64,000 nt of DNA from Halobaculum sp. MBLA0147 (lineage in GTDB: Archaea; Halobacteriota; Halobacteria; Halobacteriales; Haloferacaceae): assembly GCF_041361345.1 (NCBI RefSeq), contig NZ_JBGKAD010000001.1:1302001-1366000 (forward strand), read 5' to 3'. Shown piece after piece: positions 2,740-57,924 of the stretch (positions are counted from its first letter, which is position 1; the number at the start of each line of letters is the position of its first letter). The notes under the pieces are model-generated. The model saw only the letters and a program-made list of their open reading frames with translations. It was not told the origin of the DNA and did not search any database. The position numbers and the translations under genes were made by a program.

Positions 2740-3705
2740 TCACCCCTCCGCCTCGACGTAGACGATCGAGACGCGGTCGTCCGTCTCGCGGAGGGCGCTC
2801 TCGACGGCGGTGGTCGCGGCGTCGACACCCGCGGTGTCGAGATCCGGGTCGAAACTCACGTCGGCGGTGACGAGCACCTGGCTGGCACCGACGAACATCG
2901 TCCGGAGCGCGTCAACGTGGACGACGCCGTCGGTGTCGGCGGCCGCCGCGCGGAGTGCGTCTTCGCGTCCCGGAGACAGCGACTCACCCAACAGGAGCCG
3001 CTTGTTCTGCCACGCCAGCGCGAGCGCGAACCCCATCAGGAGGAGTCCGATCAACAGCGCCGTCGCGGCGTCGAACGCCTCGACACCGGTGACGCGGGTG
3101 AGCACGATCCCGACGAGCGCGATGACGGCGCCGCCGAGTGCGACGGCGTCCTCGGTGAACGCCGTCAGCGTGGTCACGTCGCTCGTCTCCCGGAACGCCT
3201 CGCGGATCCCGGACCAGTCGTACGTCTCGATCTGCCGCTGGAGTTCCCCGTTCGCCTTGGCGAGCGCCCACGTCTCGAAGACGATGGCGGCGCTCAACAC
3301 GCCGACGCTCAACTGGAACGTCGACAGCGGCACTAGTGCCGTGAAGTCGATCCCGGCGATCACGACCTCGCGTGGGCCGCCGCCGTGGCCGCCGTGGCTC
3401 GTCAGCGCGGAGTAGCCGTGTTTGAACGACTCCCACCCGGCGATGCCGAACAGGAGCACGGAGACGAGAAACGAGTAGAAGAACTGTGCCTTGCCGTAGC
3501 CGAACGGGTGTGTCTGCGTCGCCTCCCGCGCAGAGTACCGGATACCGATCAACAGGAACACCTGGTTCCCGGTGTCGGAGACGGAGTGGTACGCCTCCGA
3601 GAGCATCGACGGGCTCCCCGACGCGAGGAAGGCGAAGAACTTCAACACCGCGATCGCACCGTTCGCGATCAGCGCGGCGATCACGACGGACTTGCTTCCA
3701 GCCAT
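2740..3705 (-). CDS. cation diffusion facilitator (CDF) family transporter
   Basis: About 321 residues with about six membrane segments and a soluble C-terminal domain of about 95 residues, the classic CDF layout. It is expected to export divalent cations (Zn, Mn, Fe or Co) by proton antiport; the metal cannot be told from sequence. Metal-site candidates are the HSVSD motif in EAYHSVSDTGNQ near residue 43 and the ED of FTEDAVALGG in a later helix. A Gly/His-rich loop (SHGGHGGGP, about residue 105) may help capture metal. The TATA box at 3731-3740 favours the ATG at 3705 over the GTG six bases upstream. The closest relatives I recall are ZnT9-like CDFs. Confidence 0.88.
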   Translation of the reverse strand: MAGSKSVVIAALIANGAIAVLKFFAFLASGSPSMLSEAYHSVSDTGNQVFLLIGIRYSAREATQTHPFGYGKAQFFYSFLVSVLLFGIAGWESFKHGYSALTSHGGHGGGPREVVIAGIDFTALVPLSTFQLSVGVLSAAIVFETWALAKANGELQRQIETYDWSGIREAFRETSDVTTLTAFTEDAVALGGAVIALVGIVLTRVTGVEAFDAATALLIGLLLMGFALALAWQNKRLLLGESLSPGREDALRAAAADTDGVVHVDALRTMFVGASQVLVTADVSFDPDLDTAGVDAATTAVESALRETDDRVSIVYVEAEG

Positions 3706-3730
3706 CGTCACCCGCGACGAGACGTGTGGG

Positions 3731-3740
3731 CATAATACCC
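3731..3740 (-). promoter_or_regulatory. TATA-like box of the CDF transporter gene
   Basis: On the minus strand GGGTATTATG lies about 30 bases before the ATG at 3705, consistent with a leaderless or nearly leaderless transcript. Confidence 0.6.
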
Positions 3741-3819
3741 CGGGGCGTGGCTGCCTCGCCGACTGGACGAGGCGGCCGCGTCGCCCGTCGCCGACGGCGG
3801 GGCCGGACTCACCGGTCGG

Positions 3820-4467
3820 TCACGGGGTCGCACACGCCAACGACGTCGTGATGAACCCACGGGCGTAGCCCGTCTGCCGGACCGCGACGGTCGTCGCCGA
3901 CTCGTTGCAGTCGAACCACTCCCGCTCGCGGTTCGAGACGACCACGCCACGGTCGTCGCGGTCCGCCCGGACGGCGATGACGTACCGCCCCGGTTCGCGG
4001 AGGTCGACGAGCAGTTCGCCCGCCGCGGGGAGCGCGTCTGTGCGGTCGACCACACTCTCCCCGTTCAGCCAGACGCGCGTTTCGACACGTCGCTCTGCGT
4101 CGGTCGCGTTGCGGATCACGACCTCGTGGGGCTCGACGTCCGGCGGACGGGCGTCGTCGCTGCCGACGGCGACGGTCGCGACCGGGTCGCTCGCGTAGCC
4201 GGCGGTCGCTCCCGCCGTCGGCGTCGGCCAGTCCGGCCCCACGTCGGCGTGGGTGGGGGTCACGGAGACGGCACGTGCGGTCGGTGTCTCGTCGGTGGGT
4301 GACCGGGCGGTCGGGTCGGCGTCGGCGGACTCGGTGTCGGACTGCGGCCGCCTGGTGTCGCCGGGTGTCTCCGTCGCCGGGGTTGCGACGCGGTCGAGAC
4401 AGCCGCCGGCCGCGACGGCCGCGACGGCGGCGAGGAGGCCGCGACGGGAGGGCGTGTGTTCGGGCAC
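3820..4467 (-). CDS. Tat-type secreted lipoprotein, Ig-like, WFDCN family
   Basis: 215 residues. The N-terminus carries a twin-arginine motif (SRRGLLA, Arg 8-9), an Ala-rich hydrophobic core and a lipobox-type Cys at 23, so it is probably exported folded and lipid-anchored. A Thr/Pro/Asp-rich linker follows. The last 120 residues look like a small beta-sandwich (HEVVIRNATDAERRVETRV, then GRYVIAVRADRDD), then the motif WFDCNESATT and a final Cys in LACATP. The protein at 43318-43890 has the same plan and the same WFDCN and terminal-Cys motifs, so they are paralogs. The two conserved Cys could form a disulfide outside the cell. Function unknown. The start is GTG, supported by AGACTTGTAC at 4491-4500. 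Confidence 0.75.
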   Translation of the reverse strand: MPEHTPSRRGLLAAVAAVAAGGCLDRVATPATETPGDTRRPQSDTESADADPTARSPTDETPTARAVSVTPTHADVGPDWPTPTAGATAGYASDPVATVAVGSDDARPPDVEPHEVVIRNATDAERRVETRVWLNGESVVDRTDALPAAGELLVDLREPGRYVIAVRADRDDRGVVVSNREREWFDCNESATTVAVRQTGYARGFITTSLACATP

Positions 4468-4585
4468 GTGTGACGACTCTCCGACGGCGGGTACAAGTCT
4501 TGTGTCGGGGCGACGAGAGACGAGCGAGAGGTCCGTGAGTCGTCGAACGCCCGCGAGTCGAGAAGAGACGGGGCACCCGGCGTCG

Positions 4586-5809
4586 CTACTCCTCGCCGGA
4601 CTCGAAGTGGTCGCCCGCGGCGGCGGGGATGCGGGTCTTCCCGAACAGCGCCAACACGAGGATCACGGTCACGAACGGGATCGTCCGCACGAGCGGGCCG
4701 GGGATCGACAACACGCCGCCGGCCTGCAACCCGAGTTGGAGCTGAGTGAGCGAGGTGAACAGCATCGTCGACAGCAGCGCGCCGATCGGGTCGTAGTTGC
4801 CGAACAGGTACGCGACGATGGCGATGAACCCGCGCCCGTTGACCATCGTCGCCCCCGCGCCGGTGAACCCGCGCAACGAGATCGACAGCGCCGCGCCGCC
4901 GAACCCGGACAACACACCCGACAACAGGACCGCGGCGTACCGCACCCGCGAGACGTTCACGCCCGCGGTGTCGAGTGCAGACGGGTTCTCGCCGGAGGCG
5001 CGTACCCACCGACCGAACGTCGTCCGCCGGAGCAGCCACCACGACCCCGCGACCGCGACGAACAGCATGTACACGGTCGGGGAGGCGTCGAACAACGCCC
5101 CGAGGAACGGGAGTTCCGACAGGACCGGCACCGTCACCGTCCCGAACGAGGGGATCGTCGGGGAGTTCTTCGACCCGAAGATCACGACGGAGGCGAACGG
5201 CGCCAACCCCAACGCGATCAGCCAGATCGCCAGCCCCGCGATGATCTGGTCGGCCCGGAACTCGATACACGCGACCGCGAACAGCAAGGCGAGCAGCGTC
5301 GAGGCGAACACACCCCCGGCGAGTCCGACCCAGACGCTCCCAGTGAACTGCGTCACGGCGGCGGCGACGAACGCCGAGATGATGAGCAGCCCCTCCAGCC
5401 CGATGTTGATGACGCCGGACTTCTCCGCGAAGATCCCGCCCAGCGCCGCGAACGCGATGGGCACCGTCCGGCGGAGCGTCGCCGCCAGCGTCCCCTTCGC
5501 GAAGAGGATCGAGACGACCTGTCCCGCCGTCGACGACGGCGCCGCCACGCCGATCGCCACCAGCACCCCGAACGCCGCCAGCACGACGCCCGCGACGAAC
5601 TGGCCGAGGCTGGCGTCCGCGAGCCGATCCGCGACCGACGAGCCGGTGTCCGTCGACTCCGCGTCCGTCGTGTCGGGCTCGGACTCTGCGTCCGTCGTGT
5701 CGGGGTCCGTCGACTCCGCGTCCGGCACCGACTCGTCGGTCTCCGTCGACTCGGTTCCGTCGATCTGGTTCGAACGCCCGTCGTCTCCCGCCGTCGGATC
5801 GTCACTCAT
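4586..5809 (-). CDS. ABC transporter permease, BMP/nucleoside-type uptake system (second permease)
   Basis: 407 residues. The first 75 residues are a repetitive Asp/Glu/Ser/Thr-rich cytoplasmic head (TDAESEPDTTDAESTDTGSS). About nine membrane segments of the branched-chain/sugar permease superfamily follow. Diagnostic stretches are AALGGIFAEKSGVINIGLEG near residue 125 and ASGENPSALDTAGVN near 270. It forms the membrane channel together with the upstream permease. The ATG at 5809 overlaps the stop of that gene in an ATGA, indicating translational coupling. It is the last gene of the operon. Known homologs transport purine nucleosides; the substrate here is inferred. Confidence 0.88.
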   Translation of the reverse strand: MSDDPTAGDDGRSNQIDGTESTETDESVPDAESTDPDTTDAESEPDTTDAESTDTGSSVADRLADASLGQFVAGVVLAAFGVLVAIGVAAPSSTAGQVVSILFAKGTLAATLRRTVPIAFAALGGIFAEKSGVINIGLEGLLIISAFVAAAVTQFTGSVWVGLAGGVFASTLLALLFAVACIEFRADQIIAGLAIWLIALGLAPFASVVIFGSKNSPTIPSFGTVTVPVLSELPFLGALFDASPTVYMLFVAVAGSWWLLRRTTFGRWVRASGENPSALDTAGVNVSRVRYAAVLLSGVLSGFGGAALSISLRGFTGAGATMVNGRGFIAIVAYLFGNYDPIGALLSTMLFTSLTQLQLGLQAGGVLSIPGPLVRTIPFVTVILVLALFGKTRIPAAAGDHFESGEE

Positions 5810-7206
5810 CGGTCGTCACCTCCCTCGGGTGCGGCCGTGTCGTCGGAAGCCGTCGAGCCCGTCGCCGTATCCGGTATCGTGTCGTCGGTCGTCTGTCCCT
5901 CCGTCGTCGCGTCCGCGGCGGTGTCACCAGTCTCCGGACCGTCCGTGTCCCCGACCGGCCGGCCGCCGTCGGTGGCGACGGCCTCCGACCCGGCGTCGTC
6001 CGGGAGGTAGCGCCGCCCGAGCAGCCGGAAGAACTCCGGCATCGCGACGAACAACACGATCAGCCCGCGGATCACGCCGACGAGTTCCGGCGGTACGTCG
6101 GTGGCGACGCTGACGTTGATCGAGCCGGACTTCAGGACGCCGAACAGCAGCCCGGCGGCCAACACGCCGATCGGGTTGTTGCCCGCGAGGATGGTGACGG
6201 TGATGCCGTCGAAGCCGTACGCCGGCACGTTCGTCTGGAAGTTGCCGAGTTTCATCATCACGTACGCCGCGCCGCCGATCCCGCCGAGGGCACCCGACAG
6301 CGTCATCGCCGCGACGACCGTCCGCGAGGCGTCGACGCCGCCGTACTCCGCGGCCGGCGGCTGGAGCCCACTCGTGCGGACGTCGTAGCCGAACGCGGTC
6401 GCCGCCAGCAGGTACGCCGCCGCGACCGCCAGCGTGATCGCCAGCGCCAACGCCACCACGGAGAAGTCCGCGGTCTCGGGGAAGACGACCCGCGGGAACT
6501 GCGCGAACGCCGGCAGCGTCCGGGTCTGCGTGGCGAAGCTCTCCGGGTCCTTGAACTCCGCCTGGACGAGGTACAAGACGACGTTCGTCGCCACGAAGTT
6601 GAGCATGATCGTCGTGATCACCTCGTTGGCGTCCGCGTACGCCTTCAGCGCACCCGGGATCGCCCCGTACAGCCCGCCGAAGACGGCGCCAGTCGCCACC
6701 CCCAGCGGGAGGATCACGAGCGTGCCGACGAGCCCGGTCACCGCCTGTGAGGCGGCGTAGGTGACGACCGCCGTCGCCAGCCCGCCGACGACCATCTGGC
6801 CCTGCGTCCCGATGTTGAACACGCCCGCCTTGAACGCGACCGCGACGGAGAGCCCGGTGAACACGAGGATCGTCGTCTCCCCGAGCGTCGTCGCGAGTTT
6901 GCCGTTCGTCGGGTCCGCCAGCGGGTTCCCGAACGCGCCGAGGAACAGTTGGTCGTAGACGACCAGCGGGTCGTAACAGGAGCCGAAGAACGCCGCCCGC
7001 GAACAGCCCGCGACCAGCCCGGCCGTGTAGATCAACACCGCCCCCACCGCGACCGACAGCAGCAGCGCCGACACCGAGATCGCCACCCGCTCGCGGGCGG
7101 AGGCACTCGTCAGCCGGTCGAGCACCGTCCGGAGTCGTGTCGCGAGGTCGCCGCCCCCGTCCCCGTCGTCGCCGGGCGTCACCCCGGTCGAGCCGGCGTC
7201 ACTCAC
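5806..7206 (-). CDS. ABC transporter permease, BMP/nucleoside-type uptake system (first permease)
   Basis: 466 residues from a GTG that overlaps the end of the ATPase gene by 8 bases. A short acidic N-terminus leads into about ten membrane segments with FKAGVFNIGTQGQMVVGG, GAIPGALKAYADANEVIT and ILAGNNPIGVLAAGLLFG, conserved in the larger of the two permeases of BmpA-linked systems. About 65 acidic, low-complexity residues close the protein. The open frame extends to 7356, but only the GTG at 7206 keeps the tight operon spacing. It pairs with the permease at 4586-5809 and with the ATPase at 7199-8965. Confidence 0.88.
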   Translation of the reverse strand: MSDAGSTGVTPGDDGDGGGDLATRLRTVLDRLTSASARERVAISVSALLLSVAVGAVLIYTAGLVAGCSRAAFFGSCYDPLVVYDQLFLGAFGNPLADPTNGKLATTLGETTILVFTGLSVAVAFKAGVFNIGTQGQMVVGGLATAVVTYAASQAVTGLVGTLVILPLGVATGAVFGGLYGAIPGALKAYADANEVITTIMLNFVATNVVLYLVQAEFKDPESFATQTRTLPAFAQFPRVVFPETADFSVVALALAITLAVAAAYLLAATAFGYDVRTSGLQPPAAEYGGVDASRTVVAAMTLSGALGGIGGAAYVMMKLGNFQTNVPAYGFDGITVTILAGNNPIGVLAAGLLFGVLKSGSINVSVATDVPPELVGVIRGLIVLFVAMPEFFRLLGRRYLPDDAGSEAVATDGGRPVGDTDGPETGDTAADATTEGQTTDDTIPDTATGSTASDDTAAPEGGDDR

Positions 7207-29935: not shown

Positions 29936-30019
29936 CGGTGGGACTGGGATTCGAACCCAGGAGGCCTGACGGCCACCTGCTCTCAAGGCAGGCGCAATAG
30001 TCCGCTCTGCCATCCCACC
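29936..30019 (-). tRNA. tRNA-Ser(TGA)
   Basis: On the minus strand a 7-bp acceptor stem (GGTGGGA with TCCCACC) and discriminator G enclose a full cloverleaf. The D-arm is followed by anticodon stem CCTGC/GCAGG with loop CTTGAGA (anticodon TGA), a long class II variable arm and T-arm CTGGG-TTCGAAT-CCCAG. The long variable arm and anticodon identify serine. No intron is visible and CCA is not encoded. I looked for a repeated copy of the 3' end as an integration scar and found none. Confidence 0.93.
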
Positions 30020-48010: not shown

Positions 48011-48060
48011 GGAGCGAGACGCGCTTCCACTTCGTCTGTGTCAGTTCTGGAACAGTATCA

Positions 48061-48071
48061 CTTATATAATT
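48061..48071 (+). promoter_or_regulatory. strong TATA box in the pccX-UDG intergenic region
   Basis: CTTATATAATT is the most AT-rich 11-mer for many kilobases. On the plus strand it would start a transcript near 48092-48096, at the first hairpin; its symmetry also allows leftward transcription against pccX. Confidence 0.6.
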
Positions 48072-48091
48072 CGATGTTTGCGGGTGGCGCG

Positions 48092-48400
48092 TGCGAGGCG
48101 CGAGTGAAACGAGCGCCTCGGCTGCGAACGGGGAGCGGAGCGACCCGTGAGCCGCGCGAGGGAGGAGCGAGCGCAGCGAGCGACGAGGCTGGGGAGGGTG
48201 AGGCGTTGTGCGGGGCAGATTCGGGCGGGACTGGAAGGGGCGGTCACGGCGGCTACGCCGCCGTGAGCTCGGGAGAGCTCCGCTCTCCCGTAGAGGGGCT
48301 CGCGTGCACTTTAGTCGTCTCGGCGACCCCTATCGCGCCGAGTGGTGCCGAGAGGCGCGATATGTCGCCGAGCGACCGCGAGCCACTCGGGGCTTCCTGA
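48092..48400 (+). ncRNA. candidate structured non-coding RNA
   Basis: Downstream of the TATA box the strand folds repeatedly on itself. GAGGCGC pairs with GCGCCTC (48094-48117), TCACGGCGG with CCGCCGTGA (about 48242-48264), CGGGAGAG with CTCTCCCG (about 48269-48290), and ATCGCGCC with GGCGCGAT (48333-48361). No CCA end, anticodon, SRP helix-8 or RNase P motif was found. Alternatives are a dispersed haloarchaeal repeat or decayed sequence. Confidence 0.35.
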
Positions 48401-48422
48401 GTGGTAGTCTCACCCGACGACC

Positions 48423-48434
48423 CACCCTTATCTG
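48423..48434 (+). promoter_or_regulatory. TATA-like box of the UDG-family gene
   Basis: CACCCTTATCTG lies about 72 bases before the GTG at 48501, implying a leader of roughly 45 bases that contains the hairpin at 48478-48499. Confidence 0.5.
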
Positions 48435-48477
48435 AACACGATCACCGAGACGACACGACGAATCGAAACGGGCAACA

Positions 48478-50451: not shown

Positions 50452-53400
50452 TCAGCGTCGGCGTTCGCGGTAGTACAGACCGCCGACGACGAGCAGTACG
50501 CCGGTCAACAGCACCACGAGCGCGTTCGTCGCCCCGCCGTCGAGCCACTCGGGTGTCGGTGTCGTGGTCGCAGTCGGCGACGCCGTCGTGGTCGCCGTCG
50601 GGGACGGCGTGCGAGTCGGCGTCGCAGTGACAGTCGGTGTCGGACTCGGCGTCGGGGTCGGGGTCGGAGACGGTGTCGGCGTCGCGGTCGACTCGACCGT
50701 CACCGTGCCGACGACCGTCTCGCCGAGTGCGAGGCGGCGGTCGCCGGGGGCACCGAACTGCCGCCGGAACGACACCGTCCGAGTCTCACCGCCAGCGACG
50801 ATCACGCTCCGGACAGCGACGGTGGCGCCGTCGACACGGAGCCGGAGCGTCCGGCGTGCCTCGGCGACGCCGTCGTTCGCGAGGGTGACGGACAGCGCCA
50901 CGGGCTCGCCGGTCGCGACGCGACTGCGGTTCAGACTGGTCGCGGTGACACGTGCCCGGCCCGTGTCGGTCCCGACGGCGAACACCGAGAGCCCCGGCGA
51001 GACGGCTCGGAAGCGGTGACGACCCGCGTCTCGACCGACGTGTGCGGTCGCCAGTGCGACCCACTCGCCGTCGTGGAAGCGGAACAGTCGTACGTCGTCG
51101 GGTGCCACCCCGGCCGCCCGCAGGCGTTCGGCCGTGACGGAGAACTGGAACCCGACGGAGCCGATCTGGTCGTCGGGCACCGCGTGTCGGACGTTGAGGT
51201 AGCCGAGCACCCGCCCGGTCGTCCGGTCGTCGTCCGTGGCGCCACCCGTCGGCGCGTCGCCAGTCGTCGCGTCGTCACCGGTCGTCGTGTCTCCCGTCTC
51301 GGTCTGGTTCGTGCGGTTCGCGGTGGTGGTCGCGCTCGTGTCGTTCGAGCCATCCGGCGTGGTAGTCGCGGCACCACTCGCGGTGGTCCCGTCCCCGGCG
51401 GACGTGTTCACCGCGGTGAGCGCCGCGGGGGGCGTCGGAGAGACGGTCGTCCGGAGGCCGTACGCGGTGTCGTTCACCGACAGGCCGACGGACTCGACGA
51501 AGATCGTCTCGTTCGTGCCGGCACCGACGGGCGCGGTGACCCGTTGTCCGCGGCGAGCCTGCGTGACGCGCACGTCGACCGTCGACGCGTTCGACGGGTC
51601 GACGCGCACGTCGGCGCCGTCGTCGACGAACGTCCGTTCGGTCGTCACGGTCTCGGTACGGACGGTCGCGTTGGCGACGCTCGTCGCGTTCGACACCGAG
51701 TCGCTCCCGTTCGTCTCCGTCTCCGTCGCACCGTCCGTCGACGACTCCTCGTTCGTGTCGTCGCCGCCGGTCGACGGTCTGACCACGATCGGCTGCACGA
51801 CCGGGTCGTTCGACGCGTTGCCGTCGCCGACCCCGACGGCGTCGACGGTGCCGGTCGCCCCGTCGGTCCCCTCGGCGTCGGCGGCGGTGAGGACTCTGGC
51901 GACGTAGTCGCCGTCGGAGGGCGCCTCCCAGGTCGCGACGTACTCGAACGGCGCTGCGACCGTCGCGTCGGTCCTGCCGAAGTCGTCGAGTCGTAACGTC
52001 GTCGCGGACGGGCCGACGACCTCCACGACGAGGTCACCGCTGCCCGTGTCGACTCGTTCGTCGACCGACACGCGGACCGTGATCTCTCGTCCGTCCGTGT
52101 TCGTCGCGTTCACTCGCGTCACCGTCGGGGCAGTGTCGAGGACGAGCGTCGGCCCACCGGTCCCACCCGCGGTCGTCGTGTGGCCGACCCCGTCTGCGAC
52201 GGTGAGTGTGACGGGGTACGTCCCCTCACTGTCGGCGACACTCGCGTCGACCGTCGCGGTGCCGACGTACACGTCGTCGCCGTCCGGGTCCGACAACGCG
52301 ACCGTCCCGACACCGAGTCCGTCGACCGTCGCCGTCGGCGACACGACCGCCGTCTGGTCCGACAGTCGCGCACGGATCCGCACGGTGTCGTTCGCCCCGA
52401 CACGCCCGTCCGCGTCCGTCTCGTCGGTCAACTGGAGGCCCGAGACCGCCGGGCCCGTCGTGTCGAGTGCCAGCGTCTCGCTCGCCGGTGGGGTCGCGGT
52501 CCGGCGCTGCCCCGACCGATCCGTCGCGGCGACGGTGACGCTCCCGGCGACGGCGCCGTCGGTGCCCGCCGCACTCGCGTCGACCGTCGCAGTGCCGACG
52601 TACACGTCGTCGCCGTCCGGGTCCGAGAGGACGACCGTCCCGGCGCCGACGGCGGCGAGATCGGCCGTCACGGCGTCCGTCGGTGCACTCGGTGCCGGTA
52701 ACCCGGCCGTCGCGTCCGTCACGGTCGCAGTCACCCGTACCGTGTCGCCGCCGGTGACGGTGCCGTCGGCGTCCGTCGCGTCGCGGACGCGTACGTCCGA
52801 CACGGTCGGGCGTGTCGTGTCGAGCGTCAGATCGCCGTCGGTCGCCGTGGTCGTCGTCGTCCCCGTCGCGTCGGTCACGGTCACGTCGACGGTCCTCGTG
52901 CCGTCGCTCACACCCGGCGCGGACGTGTCGACGGAGGCGGTCGCGTCGTACACCCCGTCGCCGTCGCCGTCGGAGAGGTCGACGGCGGCGTCACCGCCGA
53001 ACGGCGAGAGGTCCGCCGTCACACTCGCCACGCCGCCGACTGCCGTCCCGGGTGCTCCGGCGAGCGCGTCCGTGGCGTTCACCGCGACACGCACGGACTC
53101 GTCGCCCGCGAGGAAGCCGTCTCCTGCGGTGCCGTCGTCGTCTGCGGGGTCGCCGTCGCCGGTGTCGGCGACGGTCGCCCGTCGAACACGTGGGGGCGCC
53201 GTGTCGACGGTCACGACGCCGGTCGCGGTCCTCGTCAGTCCCTCGCGGTCGGTGACGGTCACGTCGACTGCGGTGCTGCCGGCCGAGACCGCTCCGACAC
53301 CCGTGTCGACCGTGACGGTGGTGTCGTACACGTCGTCGCCGTCACCGTCGGTGAGGGGCACGTCGGCGGTGCCGTTCAGCCCCGAGAGGTCCGCCGTGAC

Positions 53401-56400
53401 CGCGTCCGACGCCAGTCCCGCGGTCGCGTCGGTCGCGTCGACGGCGACAGTCACTCGCTCGCCGTCACTCGCCACGGCCTCGGTCCCCCCGACGACCGTG
53501 TCGCCGTCGACGGCCGTCACGGAGACGCTCGCGACCGTCGGCGGTGTCGCGTCGAGCGTGGTCGTCGACGCGGCGGTGGCGGTGTTGTTCGCCCGGTCGC
53601 TCGCGGCGACGGCCACCGACACCGACCCGTCGGTCACGCCGGTCGCGTCCGCGTCGACCGTGACGGTCGTCTGGTACGTCCCGTCGGTGTCGCCGTCGGT
53701 GAGTGTCACGGCGTCGTGTCCGGCACCGAGCAGCCCGGAGAGGGTCGCCGTCACGGTCGTGGGAGCCACCCCAGTCGCGTCCCCGCCGGGGTCGGACGGG
53801 CTCGCAGTCACCGTCAGGCTCTCGCCGTCGGTCACGTCCCCGTCGGTGTCGCCGTCGGTGAGCGTCACCGCTCCGACCGTCGGGGGTGTGGTGTCGACCG
53901 TCACCGTCGGTGTCCGACTCGCGGTGTTGTTCGCGCCGTCTGCGACGGTGACGGCGAGTGTCACGTCGCCCTCCGTGGCGCCGGAGTCGGAGACCGTGAC
54001 ACTCGTCCGGTAGGTGTCCGGCTGGCCGCCGACGGGAGAGAGTGTCGCCTCGCTCGCGCCGCCGAGTGGTGACAGGTCCGCCGTCACCGCACTCGCGTCG
54101 AGTCCGGCCGTCGTGTCCGTCGCCTCGACGGTGAGAGTGAGCGTCTCGCCTCCGCGGAGCGTGTCGTCGTCTCCGACCGTGTCACTCTCCGTCAGTGTCA
54201 CCGACTGGACCGCCGGGTCCGTCGTGTCGAGCGTCACGTCTGCCCCGTCTGTCCCACTCAGTCGCGCGGCGTCGGTTCCAGTCACGTCCACCGTCACCGA
54301 GCCGTCACTCGCGGCCGTCGCCGCGTCCACCGTCGCGGTCGTCTGGTACGTCCCGTCCTCGTCGTCGTCGGTCAGCGAGACGGTCCCCGCACCGAGGGCA
54401 GAGAGGTCCGCGTCGACGCTCTCGACGGCCGAACCGGTGCCGTCCAGGTCTGCCGCGACGGTGACGGTCTCGCCGTCGCGCACGGTCGCGTCGGCGCCGT
54501 CGCCGCTCGTGACCGTCACGCCCGACACCGTCGGCGGGACGGTGTCGAGTGTCACCGTCACCGAGTCGTTCGTCGCCGCGTTCGCGGCACCGTCCGTCGC
54601 CGTCACTCCCACCGTCACCGCACCGTCGCTCGCGCCGCCGGCGTCGCCGTCGACGGGCTGTGTCGTGGTCGCGTACTCGGTTCCTCCCTGTGGCGACAAC
54701 GACACTGCGCCACCGAGTCCGAGGCCGGAGAGGTCGACGGTCACCGTGTCGACGGCGGTCCCAGGCGGTGTGTCGGTGACGTTCGCCCGGACGCGCACGT
54801 CGTCGCCGTCGGTCACGACGCCGTCCGCGTTCCGCGCGTCGACGACTGTCACGTTCGCCACCGTCGGTGCCGTGGCGTCGACCGTCAGCGTCCGACTGTC
54901 GTCCGAGCCGACGTTGTCGGCCACGTCCCCGGCGGTGACGTTCACCGCCACCGAGCCGTCCGTCGGCTCGGCGTTCGACCCCACGTCGACCGTCGCCTCG
55001 TAGGTGTCGTCGTCGTTGCCGTCGGTGAGCGTGACACTCCCGACACCGAGTGCGGCCGTGGTGGACCCGGCGAGTGTCACCCCGCCCGTCGCGACGCCGC
55101 TGCCTCCGTCCGTCACCGTGGCGGTGAGCGTGACACTGTCGCCGGCAGCCACGATTCCGTCGTCGGGTGTCCCGGCGTCGACACCGTCGTCGACCGTCAC
55201 GCCGGTGACGCTGGGTGCGGTCGCGTCGACCAGCAATGTCCCGGTGGTGTCCGTCCGCGTGTTCGTCTCCGCGTCCTCAACGGTGACCGTCACCGACCGG
55301 TCGCCCGCCGTCGCACTCGCGCCGACCGTCTCCGTCGTCGTGTAGTTCCCGTCGGCCGAGTCGACCGTCAGTCCGACGCTACTCCCGAGTCCGTACGCCC
55401 CGAGGTCGGCGGTCACGTCGATCGTACTCGTCGCGTCGGCGGCCGCGACCTCGACGAGCACCTCGTCGCCCGGCTTCACCGCACCGTCGCCGTCGGTCGC
55501 GTCGACGAGCCGGAGTCCGGAGATCGTCGGGCGCGTGGAGTCGAGACTCAACGTCGCCGTACTCGTCACCTCGCGTGTCTGTCCCTCCGTGTCCGTCGCG
55601 GTCACGTCGACGGCGTAGTCGCCGTCCGACGCCGCCTGTGTGCGGTCGACCGTGACGGTACCGTCGTAGGTGTCGTCGCCGTCTCCGTCGTCGAGTGACA
55701 CTGCCGATCCGGCGCCGAACGCCGAGAGGTTCGCTGTGACCGACGACACGCCGGCCGTGTCCGCGAGTTCGACGGCCACACGGATCTGGTCGCCGTCGCC
55801 GACGACCCCGTCGCCGCCGGACTCGTCCGAGACCCCGATCGCGTCGGCGGCCGTCGCGGCGCCGACGAACGCCGGCGGCCCACCGTCGAAGGCCGGGCCG
55901 GTCTGGGCGTCGCCGTTCGCGTTTCCGGTCGCGTCCGTCCCGGTCAGGCTCACGCTCGTCGCACCGTCGGTCCCGCTCGCCGTCGCCGACAGGTTCACCC
56001 GGTACGTGTCTCCGCCGACGTTCGACAGCGTCCTCGTCCCGAGTCCGTACGTCGAGAGGTCCGCCGTGACGCGCCCGACACCCGCGCCGCCGTCCGTCAC
56101 GGTCGCTTCGACGGTGACGTTCTCCCCGACCACCACGGTGCCGTCGGCGTCTTCGTCGGTCACGGAGACGCCCGAGAGCGACGGCGCCGTCGTGTCGACG
56201 GTGACCGTCCCGACCGTCGTCGTGTTCGTCACACCCTCGGTGTCCGCGACCGTCGCCGTGATCGTCACCGCCCCGTCGCTCACGCCGGCGGCGTCGCCGT
56301 CGACCGTCACCGTCCTGTCGTAGGTCCCGTCGGTGTCACCGTCGGTGAGCGTGACGGCGTCGTTGCCCGTCCCGAGCACGCCCGAGAGGTCCGCCGTCAC

Positions 56401-57924
56401 CGCGCCGGAGTCGACGCCGCTCGTGGCGTCGGTCGGCGCGACCGCCACGCGCAGTTCGTCGCCGTCACCGACGACACCGTCCGTCGCGTCCGTCTCCGAC
56501 CCGCCGACGACCTCCGTCTCCGCGATCGGTTCCGGATCGACCGCCGGTGGCGTGGTGTCGACGGTGGTGCTACTCGTCTCACCCGCCGCACCGTCCTTCG
56601 TCAGGCCGCTCGTGTCGGCGGCGGTCTGGAGCGTCGCGGTGTAGTCACCGTCCGCCGTCAACTCGACGGTCGCCGTGTACGTGTACGGTCCCGTCCCGCT
56701 CTCCGTGAAGACCCCCTCCGAGACCGTCTGGCCGTCCGGTCCGGTCACCTGGACCTCGATCGAGCCGAGCTGCTCGGAGCTGTCGACGGAGAGTTCGACG
56801 CTCTGTGCGTCTGGAGTCGAGACGTTCGTCAGCGAGAACCCAGAGATGTCCGGCTCCGTGTTCAACGCCAGGCTCCCGGTCGTCGCCGTCCCCTCGGTGC
56901 CGAGCGTGTCGGCGGCCGTCACGCCGACGGTGTAACTCCCGTCGGCGTTCGCCTGTGACTCGTCGACGGTGACGGTCGCGTCGTAGGTGCCGTCGGTGTT
57001 CCCGTCGGTGAGTGCCACGTCGGTGCCGGCACCGAACGCCGACAGGTCGGCAGTGACGGTGTCGACGCCGACGCCGGTGTCCGTCACGTCGGCCGCGACA
57101 CGCACCGTGTCCCCGTCACCGACTGGATCCACCCCCGTGGCGTTCTCCAACACGAGATTCGACAGCGACGGCGGCGTGGTGTCGAGTCGGAGCGACCCGC
57201 CGCTGGTCGCGCTCGCGAGGTTCGTCGGTGTGTCCGTGTCGTTCGCGTAGACCGAGACGGCGTAGCTCCCGTCCGAGTCGGCCGCCGCGGCGTCGACGGT
57301 GACGGTCGTCGCGTACGTGTCACCGCCGGTGTTCGACAGCGTCGCGTTCCCCGACCCGCCGAACGCCGACAGGTCGGCGGTGACGTTCTCGACGGTCGAG
57401 GTCCGGTCCACGACACCCGTCGCCTCAACCCGCACCGAGTCGCCGTCGGTCACGTCGCCGTCGCCGTCCGTCGCGTCCGACAGCGTGAGGTTCGACTGTG
57501 TGAGCACCGGCGGCGTGGTGTCGCGGGTGAGTTGGTCTCTGATCGTCGTCCCGTCGGCGCCGTCGTTCCCCGCAGCGTCTTTCGCCTCCCCGAGTTCCGC
57601 GACGTACGTCGTGTCCGTCGCGGGTGTGAACGTTCCGACGTACTCGTAGCTGCCGCCCAGATCCGTCTCGGTGAACGTACCTTCGTTCAGCGACGTGTAG
57701 AACCCCTCGTCGTCGTCGACGACCACGAGAACGTCCGTCAACTGCTCGTCACTCTCGAAGCTGACCTCGATCGTGTCGTCGGCGACCTCCGTGACGACGA
57801 AGTTCGAGATCGTCGGTGCCGTCGTGTCCGCGACCGCCCTCGCAGGTCGCACGTCGGCACCCGTACTCGCGTCGGCTCCCGTACTCACGTCGGCTCCCGT
57901 ACGTAGTGTGGTGTCGACACCCAC
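50452..57924 (-). CDS. giant modular cell-surface protein: about 18 Ig-like modules, PGF-pre-PGF domain, Thr/Pro stalk, C-terminal membrane anchor
   Basis: 2,490 residues from GTG 57924, but this start lacks a signal peptide; the signal lies in another frame upstream (57885-58121). From about residue 35 to 2045 the protein is a chain of about 18 beta-sandwich modules of roughly 110 residues, each opening with a D-T-x-P-P-x-V type motif and containing VTADLS...G and LTDGDTDGTY. Three (first, fourth, last) are a different subtype (SNFVVTEVADDTIEVSF-like). Next come a Thr/Ser/Asn-rich stretch with many N-x-T/S sequons, then a PGF-pre-PGF domain (LGYLNVRHAVPDDQIGS to SPGLSVFAVG, about 2230-2305). 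A CARDB-like domain, a (T-P) stalk and one membrane segment with RERRR tail follow. No PGF-CTERM motif. Probably adhesion or matrix. Confidence 0.85.
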   Translation of the reverse strand: MGVDTTLRTGADVSTGADASTGADVRPARAVADTTAPTISNFVVTEVADDTIEVSFESDEQLTDVLVVVDDDEGFYTSLNEGTFTETDLGGSYEYVGTFTPATDTTYVAELGEAKDAAGNDGADGTTIRDQLTRDTTPPVLTQSNLTLSDATDGDGDVTDGDSVRVEATGVVDRTSTVENVTADLSAFGGSGNATLSNTGGDTYATTVTVDAAAADSDGSYAVSVYANDTDTPTNLASATSGGSLRLDTTPPSLSNLVLENATGVDPVGDGDTVRVAADVTDTGVGVDTVTADLSAFGAGTDVALTDGNTDGTYDATVTVDESQANADGSYTVGVTAADTLGTEGTATTGSLALNTEPDISGFSLTNVSTPDAQSVELSVDSSEQLGSIEVQVTGPDGQTVSEGVFTESGTGPYTYTATVELTADGDYTATLQTAADTSGLTKDGAAGETSSTTVDTTPPAVDPEPIAETEVVGGSETDATDGVVGDGDELRVAVAPTDATSGVDSGAVTADLSGVLGTGNDAVTLTDGDTDGTYDRTVTVDGDAAGVSDGAVTITATVADTEGVTNTTTVGTVTVDTTAPSLSGVSVTDEDADGTVVVGENVTVEATVTDGGAGVGRVTADLSTYGLGTRTLSNVGGDTYRVNLSATASGTDGATSVSLTGTDATGNANGDAQTGPAFDGGPPAFVGAATAADAIGVSDESGGDGVVGDGDQIRVAVELADTAGVSSVTANLSAFGAGSAVSLDDGDGDDTYDGTVTVDRTQAASDGDYAVDVTATDTEGQTREVTSTATLSLDSTRPTISGLRLVDATDGDGAVKPGDEVLVEVAAADATSTIDVTADLGAYGLGSSVGLTVDSADGNYTTTETVGASATAGDRSVTVTVEDAETNTRTDTTGTLLVDATAPSVTGVTVDDGVDAGTPDDGIVAAGDSVTLTATVTDGGSGVATGGVTLAGSTTAALGVGSVTLTDGNDDDTYEATVDVGSNAEPTDGSVAVNVTAGDVADNVGSDDSRTLTVDATAPTVANVTVVDARNADGVVTDGDDVRVRANVTDTPPGTAVDTVTVDLSGLGLGGAVSLSPQGGTEYATTTQPVDGDAGGASDGAVTVGVTATDGAANAATNDSVTVTLDTVPPTVSGVTVTSGDGADATVRDGETVTVAADLDGTGSAVESVDADLSALGAGTVSLTDDDEDGTYQTTATVDAATAASDGSVTVDVTGTDAARLSGTDGADVTLDTTDPAVQSVTLTESDTVGDDDTLRGGETLTLTVEATDTTAGLDASAVTADLSPLGGASEATLSPVGGQPDTYRTSVTVSDSGATEGDVTLAVTVADGANNTASRTPTVTVDTTPPTVGAVTLTDGDTDGDVTDGESLTVTASPSDPGGDATGVAPTTVTATLSGLLGAGHDAVTLTDGDTDGTYQTTVTVDADATGVTDGSVSVAVAASDRANNTATAASTTTLDATPPTVASVSVTAVDGDTVVGGTEAVASDGERVTVAVDATDATAGLASDAVTADLSGLNGTADVPLTDGDGDDVYDTTVTVDTGVGAVSAGSTAVDVTVTDREGLTRTATGVVTVDTAPPRVRRATVADTGDGDPADDDGTAGDGFLAGDESVRVAVNATDALAGAPGTAVGGVASVTADLSPFGGDAAVDLSDGDGDGVYDATASVDTSAPGVSDGTRTVDVTVTDATGTTTTTATDGDLTLDTTRPTVSDVRVRDATDADGTVTGGDTVRVTATVTDATAGLPAPSAPTDAVTADLAAVGAGTVVLSDPDGDDVYVGTATVDASAAGTDGAVAGSVTVAATDRSGQRRTATPPASETLALDTTGPAVSGLQLTDETDADGRVGANDTVRIRARLSDQTAVVSPTATVDGLGVGTVALSDPDGDDVYVGTATVDASVADSEGTYPVTLTVADGVGHTTTAGGTGGPTLVLDTAPTVTRVNATNTDGREITVRVSVDERVDTGSGDLVVEVVGPSATTLRLDDFGRTDATVAAPFEYVATWEAPSDGDYVARVLTAADAEGTDGATGTVDAVGVGDGNASNDPVVQPIVVRPSTGGDDTNEESSTDGATETETNGSDSVSNATSVANATVRTETVTTERTFVDDGADVRVDPSNASTVDVRVTQARRGQRVTAPVGAGTNETIFVESVGLSVNDTAYGLRTTVSPTPPAALTAVNTSAGDGTTASGAATTTPDGSNDTSATTTANRTNQTETGDTTTGDDATTGDAPTGGATDDDRTTGRVLGYLNVRHAVPDDQIGSVGFQFSVTAERLRAAGVAPDDVRLFRFHDGEWVALATAHVGRDAGRHRFRAVSPGLSVFAVGTDTGRARVTATSLNRSRVATGEPVALSVTLANDGVAEARRTLRLRVDGATVAVRSVIVAGGETRTVSFRRQFGAPGDRRLALGETVVGTVTVESTATPTPSPTPTPTPSPTPTVTATPTRTPSPTATTTASPTATTTPTPEWLDGGATNALVVLLTGVLLVVGGLYYRERRR

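Follow-up and report, generated by a model that had tools for sequence, protein, structure and literature searches.

REP/RAYT elements are single mobile hairpins with fixed unpaired bases, of which one strand is recognised. Dispersed structured repeats are known in bacteria in other forms as well, for example BOX of S. pneumoniae, which PMC3049150 presents as a modular, tightly folded element with optional repeated modules between fixed ends, over-represented between convergent genes. In haloarchaea, the PATEs and SMRs of Haloquadratum are mobile elements that do without a transposase, and PATEs, as described in PMC3119063, have near-terminal palindromes, lack terminal repeats and resemble the termini of IS605. 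The miniature inverted-repeat elements (MITEs) of the IS6 family in archaea include MITEHarch3, for which there is an ISfinder entry (PMC6807381), and a pair of IS6 MITEs that are 227 and 336 bp long (PMC7986276). A review of prokaryotic MITEs (PMC10969869) was also used for comparison.

The DNA analysed here, referred to as the window, is a 64,000-nucleotide stretch of the genome of Halobaculum sp. MBLA0147. It contains a decayed MITE of the IS6 type that carries a structured core (Table 1), and this locus probably belongs to a family of mobile haloarchaeal hairpins with a conserved structure, one copy of which here lies inside such a MITE.

Table 1. Features of the decayed MITE and of its structured core, in window coordinates.
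Feature	Position	Strand	Basis or remark
Whole element: decayed IS6-type MITE with core	48055..48443	+	Left-end remnant and right terminal repeat
Decayed left terminal inverted repeat, contains the TATA (48061-48071)	48055..48075	+	Alignment to GGTAGTGTTCAGATAAGCCGAT
5' module with exchangeable hairpins (48095-48119, 48128-48148)	48080..48227	+	Sister copies, other genera, fold
Conserved motif GCGAGGGA in 5' module	48156..48163	+	
Conserved motif GGCTGGGGAGG in 5' module	48187..48197	+	
Structured core, haloarchaea-wide hairpin family	48228..48402	+	Covariance model R1, 107 bits, E 2.7e-21
P1 5' arm GGAAG, pairs with 48393-48397	48233..48237	+	Helix 1, 98.9% of cells paired
Two extra hairpins between P1 and P2	48242..48292	+	Lacking in minimal 125-nt copies L006-L010
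P2 5' arm GAGGGGCTCGCG, pairs with 48377-48388, one mismatch	48293..48304	+	Helices 2-3
Conserved 9-nt bulge	48305..48313	+	Small hairpin instead in some Halorussus copies
P3 5' arm GTCG-T-CTCGGCGAC, pairs with 48364-48376	48314..48327	+	Helix 4, 98.8% paired
Conserved C-N-C internal loop opposite T48363	48328..48330	+	
P4 hairpin, TATCGCGCC (48331-48339) / GGCGCGATA (48354-48362)	48331..48362	+	Helix 5, 98.8% paired
P1 3' arm CTTCC	48393..48397	+	In other genera, the mobile unit has its 3' boundary at the GGGGCTT(T/C)C end
Right terminal inverted repeat CTTATCTGAACAC (48427-48439) with 4 further nt on its outer side	48427..48443	+	Exact match

A first-pass annotation of the window had drawn attention to a strong TATA box followed by a chain of hairpins, and had proposed two readings, a gene for a non-coding RNA and a structured repeat with dispersed copies. 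The box, CTTATATAATT, can indeed be read in the sequence, and no credible gene lies behind it. Its reading as a promoter, however, is not supported, since the left-end remnant aligns to GGTAGTGTTCAGATAAGCCGAT at a fixed distance before GCGGGTGGCG, that is, to the left terminal repeat of the sister copies at the right distance, with 6 of 3000 shuffles scoring as well. Moreover, seven sister copies aligned at the position of the TATA have GTGTTCAGATAAG-type ends there and no TATA. The box thus lies in the left end, now decayed, of a transposable element whose IS6-type terminal repeats had been missed in the first-pass annotation. The right terminal repeat alone is intact in the window copy; related genomes have intact IS6-family elements of ~700 bp, the ends of which are identical to the CTTATCTGAACAC of this repeat. 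The 5' module is found in sister copies and in copies of other genera too (L089 and L095, for example).

In a genome of the same genus (G001), the flanking genes are 94 nt apart, as opposed to 490 nt in the window (counted from the sequence), and hence the element is absent from G001, which retains the empty site. No clear target duplication was seen around the window copy (4/8 when scored by eye), the left end of which is decayed. Further along the window, at 50452-57924 on the minus strand, there is an ORF of 2490 aa with repeated segments that appear Ig/cadherin-like by eye; with its C-terminal threonine-proline-rich stretch and hydrophobic anchor, the predicted product looks like a surface protein.

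Many further copies are present in the same genome. With 48200-48420 as the query, 54 matches were obtained (E up to 1), of which the best besides the window copy itself are 86-93% identical, and these copies share the right end CTTATCTGAACAC and the left end GTGTTCAGATAAG. A pattern search for the terminal ends in this genome led to 66 matches versus 13 for the reversed control, and many of the terminal-repeat matches are paired 160-480 bp apart. Target duplications were sought in 18 elements of this genome, 16 MITEs and two IS. Among the MITEs, two have exact 8-bp duplications and two have duplications matching at 7/8, whereas none of 306 mismatched flank pairs reached at least 7/8 (permutation 0/20000), and of the lengths from 4 to 12 only 8 stands out.

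The ends GG(C/T)(A/G)GTGTTCAGATAAG are common to the copies of this genome and to intact IS6 elements of 697-701 bp in its relatives. Among nine loci of such intact relatives, L238, L241 and L244 possess perfect ends of this type together with an exact 8-bp duplication, while L245 combines an exact 8-bp duplication with ends that differ slightly. No intact IS6 copy was found in the genome of the window itself, where two elements of ~690 bp (L031 and L032) have the same ends as the MITEs and degenerate transposase genes; the better of the two matches the NCBIfam IS6 model NF033587 with an E value of 1.2e-34 and 119.8 bits, against a cut-off of 125. Taken together, the IS6-type terminal repeats and the 8-bp duplications of sister copies indicate that the MITE was most likely moved by an IS6-family transposase acting in trans.

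The shell is, in other words, a known kind of element, an IS6 MITE. The family in the window is like the archaeal IS6 MITEs described in the sources named above in its IS6-type ends, 8-bp duplications, lack of a transposase and similar length, and it differs in that its core is shared with genera whose copies are mostly devoid of such ends. The window shell is likened to MITEHarch3 by description alone.

Several smaller observations were made alongside. The hairpin modules GAACGGGGAGCGGAGCGACCCGTGAG, GAGGCGCGGCTGCGCCGCGCCTC and similar ones, which are exchangeable units, occur in the same genome apart from the core as well (L033-L036, L024; C1 926878, 699027, 64151 and others). At L034 340-580 (C1, ~733840-734081), a short relative of the MITE adjoins a run of GTTTCAATCCCGGTGTGGGTTTCC repeats that resembles a CRISPR array. 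In another genus, a reduced cousin (G009 L053 and L057, ~1380-1600) with the ends GGAAGGGGC...GGGGCTTCC has exchangeable hairpins only between its ends and no core P3/P4.

The chain of stems itself proved to be real. The predicted RNA fold of 48073-48415 has an energy of -187.6 kcal/mol compared with a shuffle mean of -169.5 (z -3.0), none of the 100 shuffles being as good, and the comparative data give one long bulged hairpin at 48233-48397. The long-range pairing of AGGGGC with GACCCCT, suggested in the first-pass annotation to close one large fold, did not stand up to the comparison, as the GGG is near-invariant (80 of 93 copies) while its putative partner varies (CCC in 57 copies, CAC in 14, CTC in nine, CGC in six, other in seven). 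The true conserved outer stem is that of GGAAG with CTTCC (P1 in Table 1), and GGAAG/CTTCC alternates with GAAAG/CTTTC among the copies. In the case of P2, other copies have GAGGGGATCGCG or GATCCGCTCGCG as the 5' arm, with matching 3' arms. Both-side changes were detected in 11 of the 13 pairs of helix 4 and in eight of the nine pairs of helix 5, where TATC/GATA is nearly invariant and the P4 loop (48340-48353) is replaceable. The unpaired features kept across copies are the GGACTGAAAG start, a GGG/GGG internal loop, the 9-nt bulge and the C-N-C/T internal loop, which adjoins the almost invariant TATC/GATA. Rfam 15 contains no match to the locus at the gathering score and nothing credible below it, and the earlier remark that it matched no known RNA class holds for this release; the sole Rfam match across the window is a tRNA at 29936-30019.

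A covariance model was built from six minimal copies, five from the genome of the window and one from the same genus. For the covariation alignment, a search at E 0.01 had given 113 matches, coming from 89 loci, and 93 of these, at 1e-12 and from 87 loci, were kept, the rows left out being antisense, partial or weak matches; redundant loci of the same places never entered. In these 93 copies, 98.0% of 3666 pair cells are standard. Both-side changes occur in 32 of 40 pairs and in 492 cells, the shuffle mean being 137 (0/500 shuffles), and the covariation amounts to 0.385, in comparison with 0.104 for shuffled and at most 0.042 for slid alignments. The alignment is fitted to the structure of the model and favours that structure; however, in view of the slid controls and of how large the effect is, this bias is unlikely to be the full explanation of the covariation. 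The search across haloarchaea thus revealed massive compensatory change and not the drift without it that would have spoken against a conserved structure. Conserved secondary structure with compensatory change, by which a structured RNA family is recognised, was found, and the predicted fold of the core is conserved in this way across the order.

Wobbles are rare (1.9% of cells). When all distinct rows from two alignments are taken together, 127 of the 6763 cells are G-T or T-G and 32 are A-C or C-A. Since an unbiased correction of palindromes in double-stranded DNA would give GT equal to AC, this asymmetry points to selection on one strand to fold, and it is one defined strand of the hairpin that is predicted to fold, in the form of either RNA or single-stranded DNA.

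The model of six minimal copies detected the core, a bulged hairpin of ~125 nt, in 88 of 293 genomes of the order (E up to 1e-4), the genome of the window included, and in 31 of the 87 genera sampled. With this distribution and the many copies in its own genome, the dispersed structured repeat is the part of the original proposal that survives, and the lone RNA gene with a promoter is the part that does not. Copy numbers are lower bounds, 12 candidates per genome having been scored. By an exact pattern, 28 copies were found in one genome of the genus holding Halorussus, compared with 0 for the control. An exact-pattern scan gave 80 loci, 76 of which were confirmed by the covariance model, and its named hosts include Halorussus, Haladaptatus, Haloarcula, Halomicroarcula, Halobacterium, Halohasta, Halorubrum and Salinibaculum. 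The model did not bear out the other four, which lie in unrelated MAGs (L173, L183, L187 and L198) and were taken as chance, and viral contigs yielded 0 exact-pattern matches. The genes neighbouring the core are diverse, and a riboswitch-like leader was rejected because those downstream of it are diverse. Gene orientation was recorded for 78 cores, namely 89 minus six that overlap a called ORF and five without a flanking ORF; in 51 of them the downstream gene is co-directional with the core (rough gene calls).

Outside this genus, IS6-type ends near the core are found in counts like those of the reversed-pattern control, clear IS6-like ends on both sides being limited to the Halorussus copies L079 and L195, and hence IS6 ends were rejected as a general feature of the core. 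The boundaries were examined in pairs of copies at least 88% alike that lie in unrelated flanks, 14 Haloarcula-type loci being left out because they are syntenic; the thresholds for this comparison and for the 3' repeats were our own choice. The similarity ends no more than 8 nt from the hairpin edge on the 5' side in all 25 pairs, and no more than 3 nt from it on the 3' side in 23 of the 25. Judging from these limits, it appears that in other genera the hairpin moves as a unit by itself. In addition, L249 and L250 share 97% identity over 198 nt, from the hairpin start into a second copy of their own 3' end, and such 3'-end repeats follow 44 of 154 cores, as against none of 154 with shuffled flanks. 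Many Halorussus copies adjoin upstream arrays of degenerate ~26-bp repeats, and others the GGCTGGGGAGG module, which is present in the window copy too. In Halorussus-type genomes, degenerate ~26-bp CGGTGACACAnnCCACCG-like arrays touch the 5' edge of the hairpin (L075, L080, L084 and L087), each repeat unit being a possible small stem-loop.

Similarity between cores is 0.76 for syntenic copies (seven pairs), 0.76 within a genome and 0.73 for unrelated copies, and the flanks of the syntenic pairs, which belong to Halorussus-type genomes, are mostly 80-87% identical. As syntenic cores are no more alike than unrelated ones, it can be inferred that stems and loops are replaced in blocks, with the predicted fold retained.

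The Haloarcula copies of the core share a syntenic plasmid locus, found for example on pNG500 and pHH126; these plasmids are typed as MPF_T in PLSDB and contain T4SS genes. There the core is divergent from an SSB-like gene annotated as "SOSS complex subunit B family protein", and a conserved TATA-like box of the TATATAAAG type lies ~300 nt upstream of the core, together with a conserved 5' domain. This setting suggests a possible function for the plasmid, either as RNA or as single-stranded DNA. The locus itself, the core with its ~300 nt 5' domain (L233 of pNG500, 4827-7180; L236 of pHH126, 2751-5706; L148, 5053-5660), is a candidate long ncRNA, single-strand origin or leading-region element. 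The small plasmids pNB101 and pHLAJ5II gave no match to the core, the 5' domain alone being matched: upstream of the rep gene in pNB101 (L234 2196-2334) and upstream of an ORF in pHLAJ5II (L235 859-1034).

On the features tested, the core fits none of BOX, PATE and REP. Like the REP/RAYT hairpins, it is a single mobile hairpin with fixed unpaired bases and one strand involved, but it is about three times longer, and no dependence on RAYT or Y1 was found. With BOX, as outlined in PMC3049150, it shares the modular, dispersed and tightly folded character and the optional repeated modules between fixed ends; it differs in its structure and in forming a family that spans an order with strand-specific covariation, and among the 78 cores 12 lie between convergent and 24 between divergent genes (rough gene calls). 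The likeness is an analogy alone, and no homology to boxA, boxB or boxC is claimed. The PATEs of PMC3119063 are likewise haloarchaeal and transposase-free, and with their near-terminal palindromes and no terminal repeats they are similar to most core copies outside this genus, whereas their IS605-like termini have no counterpart in any Y1 association of the core, a comparison made by description alone. In addition, PATEs are recognised by having neither terminal repeats nor a target duplication, while the copies of the window and its genus do have terminal repeats and the sister copies do have duplications.

The Y1 transposase (PF01797) is present in 52 of the 88 core-bearing genomes and in 134 of the 205 others (p 0.35), and it is missing from nine of 23 high-copy genomes. 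Mobilisation in the manner of PATE/IS605 or REP-RAYT found no support in these counts over 293 genomes, although a Y1 helper may have been lost from core-bearing genomes. In the literature on haloarchaeal repeats we found no description of the core, and none of the papers retrieved described an archaeal family that spans an order and combines so much strand-specific covariation with boundaries at the base of the hairpin and a 3' end duplicated in tandem.

It is proposed, tentatively and with less than even confidence, that the core represents a new class of mobile hairpin: a folded strand of RNA or single-stranded DNA with a fixed bulge code, copied by a putative non-Y1 enzyme, without terminal repeats, with tandem duplication of the 3' end, with stems rewritten by exchange and with an ancestral-looking plasmid form in Haloarcula beside the SSB-like gene. 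In the more probable explanation favoured overall, the fixed bulges would let a putative enzyme recognise the folded single strand, either RNA or DNA that becomes exposed during replication or transfer, and copy the hairpin to new sites. Copying would sometimes re-use or read through its own 3' end, giving rise to the tandem 3'-end repeats, exchange between hairpin copies would keep rewriting the stems, and in this genus the hairpin would have become the cargo of an IS6-type MITE.

The strand-specific covariation would also be expected of a functional family of structured ncRNA genes, the copies of which would be transcribed and retained because they serve the cell or a plasmid, their spread being secondary. 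The syntenic plasmid copy of Haloarcula, with the TATATAAAG-type box ~300 nt upstream and the conserved 5' domain, is in agreement with such a family, and so are the co-directional downstream genes in 51 of 78 places (rough gene calls). Nevertheless, we consider it rather unlikely, bearing in mind copy numbers of at least 28, the large differences between genera, the 205 of 293 genomes with no match, the diversity of the neighbouring genes, the lack of an Rfam class and the fact that the sole TATA at the window copy is a decayed transposon end. Some hairpins, such as Frpo/ssi and sso, work as folded single-stranded DNA in plasmid transfer or rolling-circle replication. The core could act in this manner as a single-strand origin or leading-region promoter, its chromosomal copies being relics, and the location on T4SS plasmids (pNG500 and pHH126), divergent from the SSB-like gene, along with the occurrence of the adjoining 5' domain ahead of the pNB101 rep gene and a pHLAJ5II ORF, would suit this role. 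However, those small plasmids match the 5' domain and not the core, and most copies examined adjoin ordinary chromosomal genes, so that an origin or promoter of this kind seems improbable.

The MITE shell, the unusually perfect stems and the modules swapped between copies might, finally, reflect nothing but an ordinary IS6-type MITE, the palindromes of which stay perfect through quasi-palindrome correction (template switching), the fold itself being unselected. Correction of this kind should erase the fixed unpaired bulges, yet they survive across genera; one strand has four times as many GT as AC cells, and the copies of other genera are mostly without IS6 ends. This explanation is regarded as highly improbable, and the window locus is best understood as a member of a mobile hairpin family carried within an IS6-type MITE. 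The core of this family provides a concrete substrate with which a mobilising enzyme not yet described, or a further class of structured RNA in archaea, could be sought, and it is a natural case in which structure is kept while the sequence is rewritten.
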